From: Erysipelotrichaceae bacterium
GTDB lineage: Bacteria > Bacillota_I > Bacilli_A > Erysipelotrichales > Erysipelotrichaceae
Length of the DNA stretch: 48,070 nucleotides
Assembly (NCBI GenBank): GCA_030523555.1
Contig: JAUNIH010000005.1
Span: 1 to 48,070, forward strand
Direction of reading: 5' to 3'
The notes below the pieces were generated by a model that ran no database searches, had not been told where the DNA came from, and worked only from the letters and a program-made list of their open reading frames with translations. Shown here piece after piece: positions 14,980-46,839 of this stretch (positions within the stretch are counted from its first letter, which is position 1; every line of letters begins with the position of its first letter). The position numbers and the translations under genes were made by a program.

Positions 14980-15795
14980 CTACATTTCACTATCCAGAAG
15001 TTCTTTAATCGCTTCATATCGAAATCCTTTACCCATTAATGAAGCTGTTATCTTCTGTTTAAGTTCTATGTCTTTATATTTATTTTCGTATTTTCTTTTT
15101 ATTTTATTAAATTCTTTATTCAATAAATCATCTTCATTATCAGAACTTATCTCTATCTGATTAAACGCATCATTTATATCATCACTCGAGAATCCCATAG
15201 ACATGAGTTTTGCCCTGATACTTCTTTTTTTATCAGCCAGTGATTTGTTCTGAATCTTATCGTTATATTTCCTGACAAGTTCAAGAACCTTATCCGATTG
15301 AGAACTTTCAGTAAGATACTTATCAATATATTCCTGACTTATACCTTCTTTTAACAGTTTATATCTTATCTGCCTGTTAGATAGAAGTGTATCACTAAGA
15401 TACATGATTCTGTTTTTACAGTACTTTTCATCATCAAGATAACCTTTAAGAATAAGTTCATCTATAATCTGATTTTTAATTTCATCACTTATATCAAAAC
15501 GTTTGAGATAATCTCTGATATTTTTAACGGTATTGTCTTTAACTGACAGTTTTCTCAGACACCCCTGATAGGCTTTAAGATACTTCTCGTTTTCTACAAG
15601 GATATTATAGAGATTATCATCAAGTCCCTTTAAAGATGAAATGGAATACTTTACATAGTCATCAAGACTTACAGATATCCTGGAGTCTTCAAGATATACG
15701 ATGACATAATTGTCTCTGATAGTATATTTTTTAATCGGATATTTTATATCTTTTACTTCGTATCTGTCCTTATTAAGGAGCTTTTCATAATTCAT
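14980..15795 (-). CDS. recX: Regulatory protein RecX
   Basis: This 271-residue protein is predicted to bind and restrain RecA filaments. It has the Firmicute RecX layout: an N-terminal segment and repeated three-helix modules such as LKRFDISDEIKNQIIDELIL, YLDDEKYCKNRIMY and LMSMGFSSDDINDAFNQI. There is no Shine-Dalgarno. Instead TATAAT lies exactly six bases before the ATG, so the mRNA is predicted to be leaderless. No recA is in the window. Confidence 0.87.
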   Translation of the reverse strand: MNYEKLLNKDRYEVKDIKYPIKKYTIRDNYVIVYLEDSRISVSLDDYVKYSISSLKGLDDNLYNILVENEKYLKAYQGCLRKLSVKDNTVKNIRDYLKRFDISDEIKNQIIDELILKGYLDDEKYCKNRIMYLSDTLLSNRQIRYKLLKEGISQEYIDKYLTESSQSDKVLELVRKYNDKIQNKSLADKKRSIRAKLMSMGFSSDDINDAFNQIEISSDNEDDLLNKEFNKIKRKYENKYKDIELKQKITASLMGKGFRYEAIKELLDSEM

Positions 15796-15830: not shown

Positions 15831-16334
15831 TCATTTTTCTGTCTCTTTCTTCTCAAGACGGTCGTATTTTCCCCGAAAATGTTTAGGAACAGGATTTTCC
15901 TTAGGATCTTTAACAAATTTATTAGTAAACATCTGTTCACTTATCGGTTTTATTGCCGGTCTTGGGGCACTTACCCTCTTGGCACCTAATGGTTTCCTGT
16001 TTTTATCAAGTATCAGCATTGCATTGCGGTTAATCGGGATATTTTTAGGTACAGGTTTATTTTCCTTATATGGAGAATAATACACGATAGAATTTGATGG
16101 ACTGATAACAGCGGTTCTTATACCCTTCTTTTTAAGATCAGTAACTATATTTTCTGCATCTTCCTTATCAAGATCTGTATAAAGATACTGAGGCATCTTT
16201 GAAACAATCTTCTTTGAAAGATCATATCCTACACCAAGCGTAACCATTAAAGATATATAACAGAAAAAGTCAGATCCTTCATGATCAAGAATTAGAATAT
16301 CGTAACCGCTTCTTTTTCTGTCTACTGTTTTCAT
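15831..16334 (-). CDS. Uncharacterised protein with an L7/L12 C-terminal-like domain
   Basis: This 167-residue soluble protein has no assigned function. Residues about 10-80 follow the pattern of the ribosomal L7/L12 C-terminal domain: a first strand YDILILDHEG, a helix region SLMVTLGVGYDLSKKIVSKMPQ in place of the L12 signature with leading Gly-Leu-Gly, then KEDAENIVTDLKKKGIRTAVIS like the L12 KEEAEE-helix and final strand. A basic, proline-rich tail of about 90 residues follows. The fold call is by eye. The start is probably leaderless (TATAAT six bases before ATG). It follows the PFOR terminator. Confidence 0.6.
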   Translation of the reverse strand: MKTVDRKRSGYDILILDHEGSDFFCYISLMVTLGVGYDLSKKIVSKMPQYLYTDLDKEDAENIVTDLKKKGIRTAVISPSNSIVYYSPYKENKPVPKNIPINRNAMLILDKNRKPLGAKRVSAPRPAIKPISEQMFTNKFVKDPKENPVPKHFRGKYDRLEKKETEK

Positions 16335-19984: not shown

Positions 19985-21943
19985 TCAGGAATTCATTCCG
20001 GTAGAAATTGTTACCACTATTGCAGCATCTTTTGAGTAAGTTGCCCTTCCTACATGGTTAACTCCATTGACTGTAACAGAAATGAGATATCCCTCAGATG
20101 TATCATTTGATGTAGTCCCATTTACCGTTACGTTTGTGAATCCGGCACTGTTTTTCAGATAATTGGTAATATTGTTCTTGCTGTTTTCAAATGATGGCGT
20201 GCCGGAACCGACAGTAACGACACCAAGATCCTGAACACTGCCAAGGGTTATTTCGGTAGTCTCTACGCCTAAAGAAACACTGTATCTGATGGTTTCGCCA
20301 GTAGTGTAATATCCATAACCATGCCAGAGGATATTGCCCGCAGCTACAGTGCTGGAATAGTCTTCTTTTTCCGTAGTCTGCGCAGGTACAAGTCCAAGTG
20401 CTTTTACAGCTGTTTCAAATTCGGAAACAGTTTTGCCTTTGTAGGTTTCGCTCGCAACATAGCACTGGCTTGAAGTTCCTGAAGAAGATGAAGATGAACC
20501 AGACCGAGATCCAAGAGATACGCTGTATCTGAAGGTTTCACCTTCTACATACTGGCCATAGCCATGCCACAGGATATTGCCGGCTGGAACAGTATCAGAA
20601 TAATCTTCATAATCTGTAGTCTTTGAAGGCACAAGACCTAAAGCCTTGGCTGCAGTTTCAAACTGAGCTACTGTATAACCCAGATATTTGTTTTTGGTGA
20701 TATATCTGTCTTCATCTGTTACGGTTGTAGTGGTAGAAGTCCCTGATTGCGAACCAAGAGACACGCTGTATCTGAAGGTTTCGCCGTCTTCATACTGGCC
20801 ATAGCCATGCCATAAGATATTACCGGCTGGAACAGTATCAGAATAATCTTCATAATCAGTAGTTTTTGAAGGTACTAGACCTAAAGCCTTGGCTGCAGTT
20901 TCAAACTGAGTTACTGTATAACCCAGATATTTGTTTTTGGTAATGTATCTGTCTTCATCGGTTACGGTTGTAGTGGTAGAAGAAGATGATCCAGATTCAG
21001 GTCCTAAAGACAGACTGTATCTGATGGTTTCACCATCTACGTAGTCACCAGATCCGTGCCACAGGATATTTCCTTTGGTTACTGTATCAGAATAGTCTTC
21101 ATAATCTGTAGTCTTTGAAGGTACAAGGCCTAATGCCTTGACTGCTGTTTCAAATTCTGTAACAGTCTTGTTCAGATAGGTATTCTTGGTAATAGTGATA
21201 GTATTTTCATCAGAAGAAGGACCTAAAGACAGACCATACGAGATGTTTTCATTTTCGGTATATGTACCATATCCATGCCATACTATATTGCCTTTGGCAA
21301 CAGTATCATCATAATCATCCTTATTGGAATTGTGATATGGGACAAGATTTACTTTCTTGACTGTCGTTTCAAATGATGAAAGAGTCATACCGACAAATTC
21401 ACCTGATGTAACTTCAATCTCACCATTGACGATAGTCTTTGTATTTTCAGCACCTTTTGATACAACAATCATTACAGGTGTATCAGTAACGATTGGTGTT
21501 GATAAAGGAGTAATGGAAATAATATGATCAGCTTCAATCGTATCTGAGAACTCTTCGTTGTATGTGACGTTTGTAAGAGCGTTCTGACTTACCCATGTAC
21601 CTATATCAGTTTTAGTGAGTGTTGCGATATTGTCAGGAAGCACAATAGTGGTATCTGGTCCATCAGAAATTCTGAAGGTAATGCTTCCATCGACTACTTC
21701 ACCTGCCTTGATAGACTGGTAGATGACACCATTTTTTTCAACAGTATCAGAATATTCATATTCAATGGCACATGGATTGTCTTTAAGAGATGCACACCAG
21801 GCATCAACATCACTTAATGTTCCTGTACTTAAATCAGGTGCCTTGATGGAATTCATATCTGTAAAAAGTGTGAACCCCAGAAATCCTACTCCGCATAAAA
21901 GCGCCAGCAGAATAATAATCAGAACAATATTCAGTTTCTTCAT
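19985..21943 (-). CDS. Membrane-anchored PASTA-repeat protein without kinase domain
   Basis: This 652-residue protein has one N-terminal membrane helix (about residues 5-30) and is otherwise extracellular. At least seven PASTA-like units follow. Units four to seven share LGLVPSKTTDYEDYSDTV-type cores and NILWHGYG motifs, and units five and six are almost identical. Ser/Thr-rich linkers such as SGSSSSTTTTVTDEDRY separate them. A different C-terminal domain of about 90 residues ends the chain. PASTA domains usually bind peptidoglycan or muropeptides in PrkC-type kinases; no kinase domain is present here. It is the last gene of the surface operon, three bases after the GH73 gene, with its own AGGAGG. 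Role as wall-binding or sensing protein is inference. Confidence 0.78.
   Translation of the reverse strand: MKKLNIVLIIILLALLCGVGFLGFTLFTDMNSIKAPDLSTGTLSDVDAWCASLKDNPCAIEYEYSDTVEKNGVIYQSIKAGEVVDGSITFRISDGPDTTIVLPDNIATLTKTDIGTWVSQNALTNVTYNEEFSDTIEADHIISITPLSTPIVTDTPVMIVVSKGAENTKTIVNGEIEVTSGEFVGMTLSSFETTVKKVNLVPYHNSNKDDYDDTVAKGNIVWHGYGTYTENENISYGLSLGPSSDENTITITKNTYLNKTVTEFETAVKALGLVPSKTTDYEDYSDTVTKGNILWHGSGDYVDGETIRYSLSLGPESGSSSSTTTTVTDEDRYITKNKYLGYTVTQFETAAKALGLVPSKTTDYEDYSDTVPAGNILWHGYGQYEDGETFRYSVSLGSQSGTSTTTTVTDEDRYITKNKYLGYTVAQFETAAKALGLVPSKTTDYEDYSDTVPAGNILWHGYGQYVEGETFRYSVSLGSRSGSSSSSSGTSSQCYVASETYKGKTVSEFETAVKALGLVPAQTTEKEDYSSTVAAGNILWHGYGYYTTGETIRYSVSLGVETTEITLGSVQDLGVVTVGSGTPSFENSKNNITNYLKNSAGFTNVTVNGTTSNDTSEGYLISVTVNGVNHVGRATYSKDAAIVVTISTGMNS
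20521..21012 (-). repeat. Near-identical tandem DNA repeats encoding PASTA units
   Basis: Within the PASTA gene the segment beginning CGCTGTATCTGAAGG at 20521 recurs at 20764, a period of 243 bases (81 codons). A more diverged copy begins near 21013. The two nearest copies differ at few positions, which suggests recent duplication or gene conversion. Confidence 0.8.
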
Positions 21944-21945
21944 AA

Positions 21946-24555
21946 TTAGCCTCCTATCACTGATGTCTTAAGCATCAGTCTTTTTCTTATAGCAGATGTA
22001 TAGAATGTCGCACTCTTTACACCGTTATCAGCACTGAAATCTGGATATCCGTAATTTGTTATTTCACAGACATCGTAGTTACTGCCGTTTTTAATCGTCA
22101 GATAGACAGTATAATCACCATCAAGATCAAAGGCAGTCTTACCGGTATTATCGCTTGTCGCTACAAAGCTGATATTATCCAGTCTGAAAGATGTGCCCAG
22201 TTCTTTCTGATAGTCTATATCTGTATCAACAATCTTCGTATCAAGCTTCAGACAGTTTCCTTTATCTGAAACAAGATATACATTGTATTCAATGCTGTCT
22301 TTATTATCGAAATCACAGTAATAGATAAACGCATGACCATCAATTCTGATTACACCGTTTTCATCAATACTGTAATTATCTAGACCCGCCAGAGAATTAC
22401 GTTTACTAGGTTTAGAAATACTTTCAAAAGATATCTCATCAGGCAGAGAAAGTATATCAAACTGCATACGGTAGAATGATTCTTCTCTCATCTTAACGTA
22501 ATATGTATAAGTATCATCTTTAGATGCCATATATCTGAAATCAACATATGAAGATGCGATATATGTTTCCATACTGTATGAACCAATAGTAGTTACAAGC
22601 TTTACGCCATATGATCCCTGAGGGATACCGGAATCCTTAAGATTGAGCTTCAGATCAAATCCGCAGTATGTATAATCGTACTTGTCATAAAGCGTATAGC
22701 CATCAGAATCAATGACGTCCGCATTAAATGCATAGGTATTTTCTTCATTATTGAGATCATAGAAGACCACCTTCTGGCTTACTGAAGAAGGATCCTTGTA
22801 ATTGAAGCCGCTTATACATCCGACACCATTGATATGCAAGGTATCTGAAGTAAGTTCTACTTCCCTGATTGATGTATTAAGCACATGATCAAAATCAACC
22901 TGGTAAACAGTATCCGCATTAAGCAGCGTTACATATTGCGTATCAATATATCCAACTGATTTTGACCAGTCATATGAATAGACACCGTCATCAGTAATGA
23001 TAGTTCCGTTTTCTACATTGTTTGTAGACTGAATCTTATATCTTCCAGCCTCTTCTTCTAAAACGATAACGGTCAGATCTTTCTGATAATGAGATCCGTA
23101 CTGTCCGGTATAGAGGACGGTGTTGCTGGTAGCTGATGTATAGATATTAGGATTCCATGAAATATTGGAATCATAGAGAACATCGTTATAGTTGTTTTTG
23201 ACAAAACCGATAGTATATTTGTTGTAGTCGGTAAGTTTACCGTTACGGTTATTGGCATATTTGTCTAAGGCATAGGCAATGGAGGCAATCTTTACACCCC
23301 AGTAAGGATCTGAAGCGTAACATACGTTGAATCCTGCGCCTTTATTACCTACACATGAACCGAAATATCTTCTGTTGGTATAATCTAAGAACCATCTGAG
23401 GTTTCTTCCCATCTGTTCCTGTACACAGTGAGAAACAGAATTAAAGTATGAAGCATCATTAGGCGAAGAGTCATATGCCGACCAGCCGAAGAGATTGTTT
23501 CTGTTGACCGCATATCCTGAAGTACCATACGCTGATTCAAGACATGCCATCGCAAAGATAATCATCGCATTGCAGCCGTATTCATTCTGCATATCAATGA
23601 AGGTCTGCCCTTCATTTTTAAGTACAGAAGTGGCGTTAGGTTTCATACTGCTTAAGAAACCATCAAACTTGTCAGCAGTAATAGACGTCTTTGATCTTAC
23701 AGGAAGGAACTGATAGTAGTTATATGCTGTACCTGCATATTCTGTAAGTAATGAATCAGTATAGAAATTGATACCGTCATTGGAATAGTATCTGACACCC
23801 TTTTTCATAAAAGGATATCCAGCTGCATTATCAATATACAGTTCATATGATAAAGGTTCACTTCCACTTGCCGGATAGGCTCTGTAATAATGGAATGCGA
23901 GATCGGTATAATTGCCGTTATCCTTTAATTCATAATAGTTCTGATGTGGAGTTACATAGAATGGTCCTTCATTTTCGTAGGTATTAAGACCACCCAGCCA
24001 AATGCCAAGATTGTTTTCAATGTACTTTGTAGGTACCAGATCGGTATATTCCAGATCAGTATATCCTTCAAAACCATTCATCACAATCTGGATATATCCT
24101 CTTCCATCAGATTTGATATCCCATAATTCTTCTGTGCAGGTATCAATATAGGTCATTTCATAATGGTTAGATATGTATGTAGTCTTGTATCTGCTATCAT
24201 CACGTTTAGTCGGATCCTGATATAGAGTCAGTGTCGCACTGTTTTTTCTTCCTGGATACGAATATGCGAGACCAGAATTCATGGCTACGATTTTTGAAGG
24301 AGAATATGATTTTGAATATCTTACGACATAATCCATATTGGCCTTCATTGCGCTTTTGGCTTCAGAAAACGAAGAATGGCAGGAAACTGTAGTAAATGAT
24401 CCATCATCTTCTATATAGGAAACTTCAAACTGATCAACAGGACATCCCATGGCATAATATTCAGTGGCATAGACCGCAGTAAAAGCTTCACCCATCGGCA
24501 TTACCAGCGTGAACATAAGACATGTGAGAACTGTAATAAATAACTTTCTAAACAT
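21946..24555 (-). CDS. Secreted GH73 N-acetylglucosaminidase (peptidoglycan hydrolase)
   Basis: This 869-residue exported protein has a signal peptide (about 1-30, ending near AVYA). A GH73 glucosaminidase domain at about 295-435 has catalytic Glu340 in MACLESAYGTSGYAVNRNN, followed by NLFGWSAYD and a WGVKIASIAYALDKY end. Flanking regions look like wall-binding or SH3-like modules (before 290 and about 450-520) and then beta-rich Ig-like domains. It probably cuts glycan strands in peptidoglycan during growth or separation. There is no LPXTG motif and no clear Shine-Dalgarno. Translation is likely coupled to the upstream gene, whose stop lies three bases away. Confidence 0.85.
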   Translation of the reverse strand: MFRKLFITVLTCLMFTLVMPMGEAFTAVYATEYYAMGCPVDQFEVSYIEDDGSFTTVSCHSSFSEAKSAMKANMDYVVRYSKSYSPSKIVAMNSGLAYSYPGRKNSATLTLYQDPTKRDDSRYKTTYISNHYEMTYIDTCTEELWDIKSDGRGYIQIVMNGFEGYTDLEYTDLVPTKYIENNLGIWLGGLNTYENEGPFYVTPHQNYYELKDNGNYTDLAFHYYRAYPASGSEPLSYELYIDNAAGYPFMKKGVRYYSNDGINFYTDSLLTEYAGTAYNYYQFLPVRSKTSITADKFDGFLSSMKPNATSVLKNEGQTFIDMQNEYGCNAMIIFAMACLESAYGTSGYAVNRNNLFGWSAYDSSPNDASYFNSVSHCVQEQMGRNLRWFLDYTNRRYFGSCVGNKGAGFNVCYASDPYWGVKIASIAYALDKYANNRNGKLTDYNKYTIGFVKNNYNDVLYDSNISWNPNIYTSATSNTVLYTGQYGSHYQKDLTVIVLEEEAGRYKIQSTNNVENGTIITDDGVYSYDWSKSVGYIDTQYVTLLNADTVYQVDFDHVLNTSIREVELTSDTLHINGVGCISGFNYKDPSSVSQKVVFYDLNNEENTYAFNADVIDSDGYTLYDKYDYTYCGFDLKLNLKDSGIPQGSYGVKLVTTIGSYSMETYIASSYVDFRYMASKDDTYTYYVKMREESFYRMQFDILSLPDEISFESISKPSKRNSLAGLDNYSIDENGVIRIDGHAFIYYCDFDNKDSIEYNVYLVSDKGNCLKLDTKIVDTDIDYQKELGTSFRLDNISFVATSDNTGKTAFDLDGDYTVYLTIKNGSNYDVCEITNYGYPDFSADNGVKSATFYTSAIRKRLMLKTSVIGG

Positions 24556-24558
24556 AAT

Positions 24559-25521
24559 TTATTCTAAAACCGTAGACACCTTTACCCAGTCAGGGCTGTT
24601 AGAGAACATGATAAACAGCGTACCGGAATAGTCAGGACTTTCATCCATGCATTCCGTTTCAAAGAATAAGGCACCGTTTTCACCAAGAACAAGTTTCTTT
24701 CCGAGAACGTTTTCTGCCTTGACAGATGAATATTCAGAATTCATACATGGAATTTCTGTTGAAGTTCCATCCTTAACAAATTTGGCATCAGTAATCATCA
24801 CATTGCCTTCAAGAGTATTTACGTTGATTCTGAAAGTAAAGACTCTGAGTGTAGATGCTACTTCATATTCTTCACCATTGTGCAGCATCATCGTTGAAAT
24901 CGAACATGAAGATACATTGACACTGGTGTTGTTGACATTGATATTCTGTGAAGTATCAAGTTTAAGTTCACTGACATAGTGAATCTTTGAATCAAGATCA
25001 ATCGTTATCATTGACTGATCTACCGCATTGATAATACGTAAAGCTGAATCAGCTGTTGTATAAGGAATAAAGATACGGCACTGGTAAACGCTCTTTTCAT
25101 AGGAAACAGTATTTACCACATTGAGTTTGCTGGTCTTGTATCCCTGCTCTTCAAGAGTGCTCATATACTTTGATACACTGTTTAAATATATTTTCTGGGA
25201 GGTCTGAAGATTACCCAGATCAAAAGATACCGCATCAGCTGATGTAAACTTAAGTTCAGCTACTACAAAGCTGAAACCGAGTTTATCAGTATCATCAACG
25301 TAGTTTTCATAATCAACAAGTTCAACCTTTATATCAGAAACGGTATTTACCGGATCTGGATCAGTATAGACAACAGTATCAGTGGTACTGGTGCTGTTAT
25401 TCTTGTTCAGCATTCTGTACAAGGAAACTCCGCCCAGCAACAGAAGACTTATAAAAAGCACTACTGTCAATACGAGAATGATAATTCTGTCTATTCTTAC
25501 TCTATTCTTCTTCTTAGCCAT
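24559..25521 (-). CDS. Membrane-anchored extracellular protein of unknown function
   Basis: This 320-residue protein has a basic N terminus (MAKKKNRVRIDR), one membrane helix at about residues 13-36, an Asn/Ser/Thr-rich linker and a mainly beta-rich outer domain. I recognise no family. The start has AAAGGAG and overlaps the stop of the Phd-like gene by one base (TAATG). Position between a Phd-like gene and a GH73 hydrolase suggests a cell-wall role, which is inference from operon context only. Confidence 0.7.
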   Translation of the reverse strand: MAKKKNRVRIDRIIILVLTVVLFISLLLLGGVSLYRMLNKNNSTSTTDTVVYTDPDPVNTVSDIKVELVDYENYVDDTDKLGFSFVVAELKFTSADAVSFDLGNLQTSQKIYLNSVSKYMSTLEEQGYKTSKLNVVNTVSYEKSVYQCRIFIPYTTADSALRIINAVDQSMITIDLDSKIHYVSELKLDTSQNINVNNTSVNVSSCSISTMMLHNGEEYEVASTLRVFTFRINVNTLEGNVMITDAKFVKDGTSTEIPCMNSEYSSVKAENVLGKKLVLGENGALFFETECMDESPDYSGTLFIMFSNSPDWVKVSTVLE

Positions 25522-25730
25522 TATTTCTCCTTTAAAGATTCTTCAGCTTCTATAAGCTGAGAAAAACGTGAAATAGGAACAATTGCCGCCATCGGCTCAT
25601 TGTTCTTGACTATTATCTTGATATCATCCGGACCTAAAGAATCAATTATCTTAGAGGCTTTTCCCTGGTTTAACTGAGATATAGGTACCAGTGAATTCAG
25701 CATAGTAGAAAATACAGATTTTGTACTCAT
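25521..25730 (-). CDS. Phd/YefM-like small protein (antitoxin fold), no partner toxin
   Basis: This 69-residue protein has VPISQLNQGKASKIIDSLGP, then IKIIVKNNEPMAAIVPISRFSQLIE. This is the order of the Phd/YefM antitoxin N-terminal domain (a VPISE-like start, short helices, then the strand pair around NxxPxAxxV). No RelE, YoeB, Doc or PIN toxin gene lies beside it. It heads the surface operon instead, so a DNA-binding autoregulator is a reasonable alternative. The start is directly behind a perfect consensus promoter with TATAAT six bases before ATG, hence probably leaderless. It could also be translated from the GAGGT that touches the ATG, but that spacing is too short. Confidence 0.7.
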   Translation of the reverse strand: MSTKSVFSTMLNSLVPISQLNQGKASKIIDSLGPDDIKIIVKNNEPMAAIVPISRFSQLIEAEESLKEK

Positions 25731-25736
25731 ACCTCA

Positions 25737-25765
25737 ATTATAAAAAAACACTATAAATATGTCAA
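25737..25765 (-). promoter_or_regulatory. Perfect consensus promoter of the surface operon
   Basis: TTGACA, exactly 17 bases, TATAAT on the minus strand, the best sigma-A match in the window. Six bases separate the -10 from the ATG of the Phd-like gene. The remaining gap to galE is AT-rich and shows nothing else I can name. Confidence 0.85.
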
Positions 25766-25836
25766 CAAATTTATCATGCAATTTATTATTATTTATAATG
25801 TTTTTAATATCTATTTATTTATCGTTAAATTTATAG

Positions 25837-26833: not shown

Positions 26834-27928
26834 CTAACCTCCAAAAACCTTTCCAATATCATTATATGTAACAACTATCATCAGCAGGATGAGCAGCACC
26901 ATCGATGCCGTCATAATCACTGATTCAAGTTTCTTGCTGATAGGTTTACCGATTATAACTTCAAATAAGGTTATTACAACTCTTCCACCATCAAAGATAG
27001 GTAACGGTAAGGCGTTCATGATACCGATATTCATAGAGATAATCGCAATAAGCTGAATATAGTAGACAAAACCGAGATTTACCGTCTCTGCAACTGTTGA
27101 ATAGATACCTACAGGGCCAGACAGATTATCTATACCAAGTCTTCCCGTAAACATCGATACAATTGAAGATATCATCAGTTTCACCAGCATCTTCATATAA
27201 TCAAGAGAATAATAGAAACAGTTGAAGATATTCATTTCTACAAGTTCCGTTCCCGCATTGGAGAAACTTATACCTACAAGATATCTGTCTTCTTCGATGT
27301 TGAATTCAGGTGTTACTTCTATATCAACCTTTGTACCGTCTCGATCAATTCTGAATTTCCAGGCACCGTTACCATCATATGCGGATAAAAAACTTACGAG
27401 TTCTGAATATGTATCAGGAGTAATACTTAAACCGTTTGGAAGTTCTGCCTTTTCAACGATATCTCCTGCCATTATACCTGCAGCTTCAGCCGGAGAATTT
27501 TCAACAACAGCTTCAATCTGAGGTTTGCTGGAAGTAGCGTAATATCCGTTGGACAGAATAACCATGGAGAATATTACCCACGCCAGAATAAAGTTCATGA
27601 ATATTCCCGCCAGCATTACCACAATCTTCTTTATTGGTGATATGCCTTTTAAAGTTCTTTCATAAGGAATATTGGTAGTATCAACACTAGGTTCCAGGTC
27701 ATTATCATTATCTCCGGCAATGGCACAGAATCCACCTAAAGGAAAAGCTCTTAAGGAATACTTTGTTTCCCCATACTGCTTAAAACAGATTAAAGGACCC
27801 ATACCGATAGAATATTCCGATACATATACATTGAATATTTTGGCTGCAACAAGATGGCCGAACTCATGTATCGCAATGATCAGACCCATCATTAATATTA
27901 AAAGTAAAATATTTATAATAGTAGACAT
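26834..27928 (-). CDS. rseP: RseP-type intramembrane site-2 metalloprotease
   Basis: This 364-residue membrane protease of the S2P family has the zinc motif HEFGH at residues 21-25 in the first membrane helix, a PDZ domain at about 130-220 (VVENSPAEAAGIMAGD), and a second active-site motif NALPLPIFDGG in a late helix. These proteases cut membrane-anchored anti-sigma factors or signal peptides. The place after dxr is the standard one in Firmicutes. The start lacks a Shine-Dalgarno and lies six bases behind TGCTATAAT, so a leaderless mRNA is predicted. Confidence 0.94.
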   Translation of the reverse strand: MSTIINILLLILMMGLIIAIHEFGHLVAAKIFNVYVSEYSIGMGPLICFKQYGETKYSLRAFPLGGFCAIAGDNDNDLEPSVDTTNIPYERTLKGISPIKKIVVMLAGIFMNFILAWVIFSMVILSNGYYATSSKPQIEAVVENSPAEAAGIMAGDIVEKAELPNGLSITPDTYSELVSFLSAYDGNGAWKFRIDRDGTKVDIEVTPEFNIEEDRYLVGISFSNAGTELVEMNIFNCFYYSLDYMKMLVKLMISSIVSMFTGRLGIDNLSGPVGIYSTVAETVNLGFVYYIQLIAIISMNIGIMNALPLPIFDGGRVVITLFEVIIGKPISKKLESVIMTASMVLLILLMIVVTYNDIGKVFGG

Positions 27929-43838: not shown

Positions 43839-44336
43839 TTAATTATTGTATCCCATTTCCGCTAATGGATATATCACAAAGAAGTGAGTAGATATAATAT
43901 CTTCTTTTTTGAAGGCTCCATAGAATCTTGAGTCCTTGGATATCTCGCGGTTATCACCAAGGCAGTAATATTCATCTTCTCCTAGTACAGCTTCAAAGTC
44001 AGAAGTGAATACATCTTCACCCACAACATCTTCCATTACTTCTCCATTAATATAGAGAACATTATTTTCATATTTAATGGTTTCTCCAGGTAAACCTATT
44101 ACCCTTTTAACCAGTTTCTTGTCTTCACTCTGAAGTACACAGATATCAAAACGGTTAATCTTCATATTTCTTGATATAACAAATGAATAGCCAAACTGAT
44201 CAGCCTTAAGTGTAGGATACATACTTGAGCCGTTGACTACCGCACTTATCAGTACAAAATTAAAAAGCAGATAGGTAACTATCAGTGAAACTGCTATTAT
44301 TTCAAGAAAATCAATAAAACCGTTTTTCTTCTCCAT
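43839..44336 (-). CDS. lepB: Signal peptidase I
   Basis: This 165-residue membrane protease removes signal peptides from exported proteins. One N-terminal membrane helix (about 10-33) precedes catalytic Ser38 in NGSSMYPTL and Lys77 in LVKRVIGLPGE. The C-terminal box GDNREISKDSRFYG is intact. No Shine-Dalgarno is present: TATAAT lies exactly six bases before ATG, predicting a leaderless mRNA that starts right behind the rplS terminator. Confidence 0.94.
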   Translation of the reverse strand: MEKKNGFIDFLEIIAVSLIVTYLLFNFVLISAVVNGSSMYPTLKADQFGYSFVISRNMKINRFDICVLQSEDKKLVKRVIGLPGETIKYENNVLYINGEVMEDVVGEDVFTSDFEAVLGEDEYYCLGDNREISKDSRFYGAFKKEDIISTHFFVIYPLAEMGYNN

Positions 44337-45636: not shown

Positions 45637-46342
45637 CTTCTATTTCCTTTATAAGCAGAACTTCTTGATCACTCAGTTCTCTGTTTAACATTTCAGGTCT
45701 ATACTTCATGGTCTCTTTGATTGCCATTTTAAGATTGTATCTTTCAATCTCCTTATGATTACCATTGGTTAAGACAAAAGGTACTTCCATACCATCATAT
45801 TCTACGGGTCTAGTGTACTGGGGATATTCCAGCAGACCGTTTTCATATGATTCTTCCTTCAGGGAATCAGAAGAGATACTTTCATCAAGAAGTCTTAAAA
45901 TACCATCACATATAACCATCGATGCCAGTTCCCCACCGGTCAGAATATAATCACCGATACTTACCTGTTCATCTATATATTTCTCAATGCGTGAATCAAT
46001 ACCCTCATAATGGCCACAGACAATCATCAGTTTTTCTTTCTTTGATAGACGCTTAAGATCATCCTGTGTAAGTGGTTTGGCCTTTGGCGAAGTAAGAAGC
46101 ACATAGGTGTCTTCATCCTTATTATTCATGATAGCTTCATGAACTACATCTACCTTCATTAACATCCCTGCCCCGCCACCATATGGCGTATCATCAACGT
46201 GACGGTGTCTGTCGTGAGAATAGTCTCTGATATCGACCAGTTTTATTTCGTGTTCCTTTTTGGATAGGACTCTAGAAATAATTGAAGTATTCAGAAAACC
46301 GTCATACATTTCTTTAAAAAGCGTAAGTACAGTTATCTTCAT
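45626..46342 (-). CDS. trmD: tRNA (guanine-37-N1)-methyltransferase
   Basis: This 238-residue trefoil-knot SAM enzyme methylates G37 next to the anticodon and prevents frameshifting. It has DDTPYGGGAGMLMKVD, LLTSPKAKPL, IVCGHYEGIDSRIEKY and the knot segment SIGDYILTGGELA. A C-terminal substrate-binding helix bundle follows. A GGAAGGA Shine-Dalgarno sits in the end of rimM (4-base overlap). Confidence 0.97.
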   Translation of the reverse strand: MKITVLTLFKEMYDGFLNTSIISRVLSKKEHEIKLVDIRDYSHDRHRHVDDTPYGGGAGMLMKVDVVHEAIMNNKDEDTYVLLTSPKAKPLTQDDLKRLSKKEKLMIVCGHYEGIDSRIEKYIDEQVSIGDYILTGGELASMVICDGILRLLDESISSDSLKEESYENGLLEYPQYTRPVEYDGMEVPFVLTNGNHKEIERYNLKMAIKETMKYRPEMLNRELSDQEVLLIKEIEDEL

Positions 46343-46839
46343 AAAAGTCCTTCCATCTTAACGACATCGATACGTTTATTATCAAGATCCACCTTTTCAA
46401 TAAAGATATCCATGATAAAAGGTACAAGAGTTTCTTTCTTATCTTCTTTAAGTACTCTCAGATAGTTACTGTGCATACCCTCTTCCACACTGATGACCTT
46501 ACCGCAGCAGACATCTTCGCAGTAGACATCAAGATCTTTAAGATCAGAAAAATAATATTCACCTTTCTTTAGAGGTTTAATATCTTCCTTACTTTTATAG
46601 ATATTGAGATTTTTATATTTCTCTACGAGATTTATATCATTGTTGTCTTTGAAAAGGACATGCAGAAATCCCTTATATTCTTTGGCTGATTCAACAGTAA
46701 AAGGAAGATGATCTTCACCCACATAGACAGTTGAACCTTTCTTATATCTGTCTTTTACAAAATCCGTATAGGAATCAACCTTGAGTTCACCTTTAATACC
46801 AAATGTATTGACAATCTTACCTATTAATACATATTCCAT
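46339..46839 (-). CDS. rimM: Ribosome maturation factor RimM
   Basis: This 166-residue protein helps assemble the 30S head near S19. Its N-terminal RimM domain (IGKIVNTFGIKGELKV) is followed by a PRC-barrel (KKGEYYFSDLKDLDVY...) ending in VPFIMDIFIEKVD. Its start has no Shine-Dalgarno, and TATAAT is six bases before ATG, directly behind the khpA terminator, so a leaderless mRNA is predicted. Confidence 0.95.
   Translation of the reverse strand: MEYVLIGKIVNTFGIKGELKVDSYTDFVKDRYKKGSTVYVGEDHLPFTVESAKEYKGFLHVLFKDNNDINLVEKYKNLNIYKSKEDIKPLKKGEYYFSDLKDLDVYCEDVCCGKVISVEEGMHSNYLRVLKEDKKETLVPFIMDIFIEKVDLDNKRIDVVKMEGLL

Follow-up and report, generated by a model that had tools for sequence, protein, structure and literature searches.

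What does a small protein resembling the Phd antitoxins do at the head of a group of cell-surface genes? The question is raised by a locus of an Erysipelotrichaceae bacterium known from a 1.79-Mb draft genome; the window, i.e. the whole stretch of DNA that was analyzed, comprises 48,070 nucleotides. The answer that we favor on the basis of sequence comparisons, with a probability of roughly two in three, is that a Phd/YefM antitoxin devoid of its toxin has been domesticated as the dedicated autorepressor of a wall-surface operon. The relatives used for comparison are almost throughout metagenome-assembled genomes of Erysipelotrichaceae, many of them from ruminant gut. The locus comprises the following features.

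25752..25835, minus strand: predicted operator array; its 12-bp palindromic units (consensus GATAAATTTATC) follow the register of the –35 box.
25835-25824, 25823-25812, 25775-25764, and 25763-25752, minus strand: best units of the predicted operator array.
25737..25765, minus strand: promoter TTGACA-17-TATAAT; the –10 box ends 6 nt before the ATG of the Phd-like gene and the mRNA is predicted to be leaderless.
25521..25730, minus strand: Phd-like gene (69 aa), Phd/YefM antitoxin-type DNA-binding domain without the toxin-binding tail; predicted autorepressor.
24559..25521, minus strand: 320-aa gene, single-pass membrane protein predicted to carry two extracellular β-sandwich domains; no Pfam or NCBIfam family.
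21946..24555, minus strand: GH73 gene (869 aa), secreted LytB-like endo-β-N-acetylglucosaminidase with long N- and C-terminal β domains.
19985..21943, minus strand: PASTA gene (652 aa), membrane-anchored PASTA repeats without a kinase domain.

Open reading frame coordinates and synteny confirmed the presence of four tightly packed minus-strand genes headed by the Phd-like gene. The preliminary description was correct for the one-base overlap (TAATG) between the Phd-like and 320-aa genes and for the three bases separating the latter from the GH73 gene; the gap between the GH73 and PASTA genes is of two bases rather than three. The same-strand neighbors are rseP and galE upstream and the gene for pyruvate:ferredoxin oxidoreductase (PFOR) downstream. 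Since no terminator-like site was called on the minus strand from galE to the Phd-like gene or from the PASTA gene to the PFOR gene, read-through into or out of the operon is possible, and the transcript may be longer.

The perfect promoter attributed to the operon was recovered as the sole 12/12 match in 12 kb, among 31 promoter matches between positions 16000 and 28000. This total is unremarkable (43 in shuffled sequences); what stands out is that this one match is perfect and is conserved in relatives. The distance between the –10 box and the ATG of the Phd-like gene is exactly 6 nt in 28 of 32 relatives. In the window, a perfect TATAAT motif ending exactly 6 nt ahead of the ATG, without a Shine-Dalgarno sequence, was found for the minus-strand genes at 14980-15795, 15831-16334, 25521-25730, 26834-27928, 43839-44336, and 46339-46839. 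In 20 loci of the genus, the spacing was 6 to 7 nt for 29 of the 86 cases having a spacing of 0 to 30 nt. Leaderless mRNAs thus look common in the genus, as judged from these spacings, and a leaderless start was rejected as a trait special to the Phd-like gene.

The neighborhood of the four genes was analyzed in relatives, where they were found to stay together rather than to separate. The 320-aa protein was detected in 54 of 147 relatives and, when a profile was used, in 123 genomes out of 272 from the family, distributed in 26 of 59 genera. The Phd-like gene lies directly 5' of the 320-aa gene in the genus of the window and also in the genera g45, g47, and g90. In 38 of the 39 Phd-carrying loci of uncultured Erysipelotrichaceae, the gene called directly downstream of the Phd-like gene is that of the 320-aa membrane protein, and not a toxin gene. 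The exception, L145, looks like a failure in open reading frame picking, the GH73 gene being at the expected place. In these 39 loci, the 320-aa gene is followed by the GH73 gene on every contig that extends far enough, and nearly all of the loci contain the PASTA gene. At least one genome carrying the Phd-like gene (L167/L074) yielded no PASTA match, and in several members of the family the PASTA gene has the opposite orientation. Most of the genus retains the order rseP-galE-phd-320aa-GH73-PASTA-PFOR. In one genome (G232), the 320-aa gene is present in two tandem copies ahead of the GH73 gene (L187, 3420-5367). Several members of the genus encode a sugar-transfer associated ATP-grasp protein (PF14397) after the surface genes (L077, 10694-11692; L074, 8883-9878; L079, 11011-12009).

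In five other genera (g7, g34, g46, g15, and g36), the 320-aa gene is directly preceded by a gene for an AbiEi-type protein of about 189 to 222 residues, as checked by coordinates in ten genomes. Three of the five proteins scanned matched PF13338 at or just under the cut-off, and the other two are sequence homologues of these three. The AbiEi-type copies adjoining the 320-aa gene were at the top of the score list, the other AbiEi-like genes being unlinked. No AbiEii toxin gene was found beside these heads; loci of this type include L089, L095, L096, L098, and L199. Inverted repeats detected at AbiEi promoters (GTACCTAA/TTAGGTAC) were dropped as they occurred in L089 only and were inconsistent. 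A rapidly built tree of the 320-aa protein grouped the loci headed by the Phd-like gene in one clade with a few losses, apart from one outlier on a long branch; the loci headed by AbiEi were separate and more basal. The AbiEi heads and this tree indicate that the same surface genes were placed under two unrelated antitoxin-type proteins. No third type of regulator was seen, among the genomes looked at, in genera lacking both heads; the upstream gene is there unrelated and variable (FMN reductase, DUF1275, SRAP, GNAT, SRP54, or GalE). The four-gene set is conserved, but the unit extends more widely than had been thought: its core consists of the 320-aa and GH73 genes, present in 26 of 59 genera, and the head may be either the Phd-like gene or a second, interchangeable gene of antitoxin type.

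The Phd assignment required further support since the match of the 69-residue protein to the Pfam profile PF02604 (E-value of 4.7e-4, 20.3 bits) was below the cut-off of 29.8 bits. The profile was matched at an E-value of 0.01 by 12 of 24 relatives of the protein, and a sequence search of the PDB with the Phd-like profile gave no match. Support was obtained from further homologues retrieved by the Phd-like profile at unlinked loci within the same bacterial family. These homologues match PF02604 better than the cassette protein, and one exceeds the cut-off. Nine of them were read and found to be antitoxin-sized (mostly 101 to 113 residues). In eight cases, the gene was adjacent to one encoding a RelE/ParE-type or PIN-type protein, with toxin domains confirmed by Pfam where tested; in the ninth, the contig ends too early. 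The cassette protein aligns only to the N-terminal part of these toxin-paired homologues. It ends at residue 69, and the homologues run about 35 to 45 residues further; the C-terminal toxin-neutralizing tail is thus absent. In the genome of the window, PF02604 was matched by the cassette protein alone. The toxin pairing of the unlinked homologues, the match restricted to their N-terminal part, and the lack of a second PF02604 protein in the genome together identify the Phd-like protein, at the sequence level, as the DNA-binding half of a Phd/YefM antitoxin with no toxin left. The N-terminal domain of Enterococcus faecalis Phd alone (residues 1-55) binds a palindromic operator without tail or toxin (PMC13034048).

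Could the protein still act as an antitoxin, with a cognate toxin encoded elsewhere or found among the operon proteins, so that the locus would be a toxin-antitoxin module with a wall-cutting effector? The family resemblance, the capacity of GH73 enzymes to lyse cells, and the occurrence of two unrelated antitoxin-type heads in the same place, as if some property of antitoxins were wanted, are in favor of this possibility. We consider it very unlikely, however, since the protein stops at the point where its homologues continue into the toxin-binding tail, the genome contains no other PF02604 match, and the operon products carry signals for secretion or membrane anchors, so that the mature enzyme would be out of reach of an antitoxin in the cytoplasm.

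If the protein is a repressor, what does it bind? In relatives, the region upstream of the Phd-like gene contains copies of the 12-bp palindrome GATAAATTTATC that are spaced by 12 bp and follow the register of the –35 box, whose own sequence (TTGACAAATTTAT) includes one palindromic unit. Matches at 9 or more of 11 positions, wholly upstream of the –35 box, were counted and compared to 300 dinucleotide shuffles. The 61 matches obtained (8.7 ± 3.0 in the shuffles) included 57 located in two adjacent phases of twelve (0 and 1 modulo 12) and 34 in the exact phase (0.7 in the shuffles), a phase test that is partly circular when taken alone because the consensus was derived from the same promoters. 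Independent checks were provided by divergent genomes and by the toxin-paired loci. The array occurs in the same phase in divergent genomes that were not used for the consensus (L172-L176). Units of the same type were present at seven of the nine promoters of the unlinked antitoxin-like homologues (10 matches versus 2.6 expected, a number reached in 0 of 1000 shuffles). No array was found in 17 relatives devoid of the Phd-like gene, nor in L189 and L193, which lack this gene although they are positioned within or beside the Phd clade. Palindromes 12 bp apart at the protein's own promoter, a feature of the Phd/YefM family, are thus found at the cassette. The operators of YefM and Axe are likewise palindromes spaced by 12 bp from center to center that overlap the promoter (PMC7730913). 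The unlinked Phd-ParE and Phd-PIN pairs (L203, L205, L206, L209, and others) carry the 12-bp unit of the cassette, and cross-regulation may occur where a genome holds both.

AT-rich repeats located upstream of a strong promoter can boost that promoter, and the array might accordingly be a UP-like element or a site for a nucleoid protein rather than an operator. We regard this explanation as highly improbable: the units obey an exact 12-bp phase, which is that of the YefM operators, the –35 box is itself included in the array, and the array disappears with the Phd-like gene and recurs at unlinked toxin-paired homologues. Because of the phasing, the absence of the array where the gene is missing, its recurrence at toxin-paired homologues, and the YefM/Axe spacing, the Phd-like protein is most likely the ligand of the predicted array, with autorepression as the most likely effect. 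The DNA-binding autoregulator that had been suspected is therefore well supported, within a conserved unit, by synteny, the phased array, and the operator unit shared with toxin-paired homologues.

The Phd-like protein is mostly 71-84% identical to that of the window within the genus, about the same as GalE (69-81%), and the other three products of the operon diverge fast (about 25-58%). Such conservation exceeds the expectation for a repressor with a single target, and further sites or partners may exist. It might even suggest a global regulator that merely happens to lie at the head of the operon and is conserved on account of many weak sites elsewhere. This is quite unlikely in view of the distribution of tandem operator pairs, the type of site covered by the survey: in 36 genomes, 47 of the 60 matches were at the cassette promoter and only 13 elsewhere, for 6 in all with a reversed-pattern control. 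The one distant pair that was looked at, a second operator-like match in the genome of the window (C15), lies between convergent genes after the hup terminator and was judged to be due to chance.

The surface proteins placed under the predicted repressor were analyzed by structure prediction and profile searches. The 320-residue product had been described as a membrane-anchored outer protein, in agreement with its model, of good confidence (pLDDT of 87), which consists of one membrane helix and two predicted extracellular β-sandwiches. It belongs to no curated family in Pfam or NCBIfam (no Pfam match at an E-value of 1), and a sequence search of the PDB with its profile returned only a weak match to FliL (E-value of 0.13). 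The assignment of the next product as a secreted GH73 glucosaminidase was borne out by a PF01832 match over the cut-off (E-value of 2.3e-14), by the invariance of the catalytic residue Glu340 in 28 sequences, and by the likeness of the predicted structure and the sequence to pneumococcal LytB (TM-score of 0.80 on the target for the model and sequence E-value of 3e-39). The 652-residue protein matches PF03793 over the cut-off (E-value of 2.9e-20) and has few cytoplasmic residues, a single hydrophobic anchor, and PASTA repeats only, without the kinase domain of PknB or Stk1. A classical PASTA kinase is encoded separately in the same genome (contig C54). The membrane anchor and PASTA repeats of the preliminary description thus stand. 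As for the sensor-like role, a wall-binding ectodomain appears more likely than a sensor given the few cytoplasmic residues. A PASTA penicillin-binding protein and a PASTA LytR-type protein, named by reading of the sequence, are encoded elsewhere in the genome, as is a second kinase-less, lipoprotein-like PASTA protein of 546 residues (G000, contig C36, about 2073-2885; L133).

The gene set, its synteny, the truncation, the absence of a toxin, the operator array with its tie to an antitoxin subfamily, and the second antitoxin-type head are read directly from the sequence. Beyond these observations, we infer repression, a releasing signal, cotranscription, and a partnership of the surface proteins with a role at the wall. 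A chromosomal Phd/YefM antitoxin would have lost its toxin and toxin-binding tail and been retained for the dedicated repression of a surface operon. The 69-residue protein would bind as dimers, side by side, to the 12-bp palindromes, which extend from the end of galE into the –35 box. By covering this box, the dimers would keep RNA polymerase from the single strong promoter of the operon, to which the repressor's own gene also belongs. The operon would be off as long as the repressor is present; a fall in the repressor, for instance through the proteolysis that antitoxins usually undergo, would lead to joint production of the three surface proteins. The secreted LytB-like glucosaminidase would then cut glycan strands, the two β-sandwich domains of the 320-aa protein probably holding or positioning the enzyme, and the membrane-anchored PASTA protein would bind peptidoglycan. 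The outcome, by analogy with what is known of LytB, is probably controlled daughter-cell separation or wall remodeling.

A further possibility, which we regard as rather unlikely, is that proteins of the unrelated Phd/YefM and AbiEi families, each devoid of its toxin, were recruited independently to head one cell-wall operon, for the stress-sensitive turnover of antitoxins. In that case, loss of an unstable repressor under stress or phage attack would release a wall-cutting enzyme, and the locus would be a switch for wall remodeling or self-lysis made from toxin-antitoxin parts.

Orphan antitoxins are often taken for decaying relics of toxin-antitoxin systems. Here, the DNA-binding half of an antitoxin keeps its predicted operator, has a clear new target, and is conserved while its neighbors diverge, and a second antitoxin family occupies the same slot in sister genera. 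The locus thus offers a testable case of toxin-antitoxin parts domesticated as ordinary regulators. It also draws attention, in uncultured gut bacteria, to a wall-hydrolase module that includes an undescribed family of membrane proteins. Open-licence full texts, searched with partial coverage, provided no paper on orphan antitoxins with peptidoglycan hydrolases, on PASTA proteins and glucosaminidases of Erysipelotrichaceae, or on YxkC-DacA.

Among known systems, the chromosomal Phd-Doc of E. faecalis is similar in that the N-terminal Phd domain on its own can bind to a palindromic operator located close to the promoter (PMC13034048). The short form is there a laboratory fragment of a full antitoxin having Doc, whereas it is here a natural and conserved product. 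YefM-YoeB and Axe-Txe share with the cassette a Phd/YefM-type N-terminal DNA-binding domain and palindromes spaced by 12 bp over the promoter (PMC7730913). The cassette differs by the absence of the toxin gene and of the tail, by its targets, which are surface wall proteins, by a longer array that begins upstream of the –35 box and includes it, and by its unit, GATAAATTTATC instead of a TGTACA core. The AbiEi antitoxins of type IV toxin-antitoxin systems have counterparts at the head of the 320-aa and GH73 genes in five genera, but no AbiEii toxin adjoins these proteins and their scores are at or under the Pfam cut-off.

For the surface proteins, the C-terminal β-sandwich of the 320-aa protein aligns best, although weakly, with the DUF4352-like Firmicutes lipoproteins YxkC (Z-score of 8.8, a value near that of common arrangements) and YcdA (8.7). 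In contrast to these lipoproteins, the 320-aa protein comprises two sandwiches on a membrane helix; the identity is of 11-13%, and there is no Pfam match. The GH73 enzyme resembles Streptococcus pneumoniae LytB in the structure and sequence of its catalytic module, but has much longer N- and C-terminal β domains and is encoded together with a membrane protein, a PASTA protein, and a predicted repressor. Finally, the Staphylococcus aureus glucosaminidase SagB acts in complex with the membrane partner SpdC. A glucosaminidase is likewise encoded here with a membrane protein, with which it may act in partnership, although the latter is a single-pass β-sandwich protein rather than a multi-pass protein of the SpdC type.
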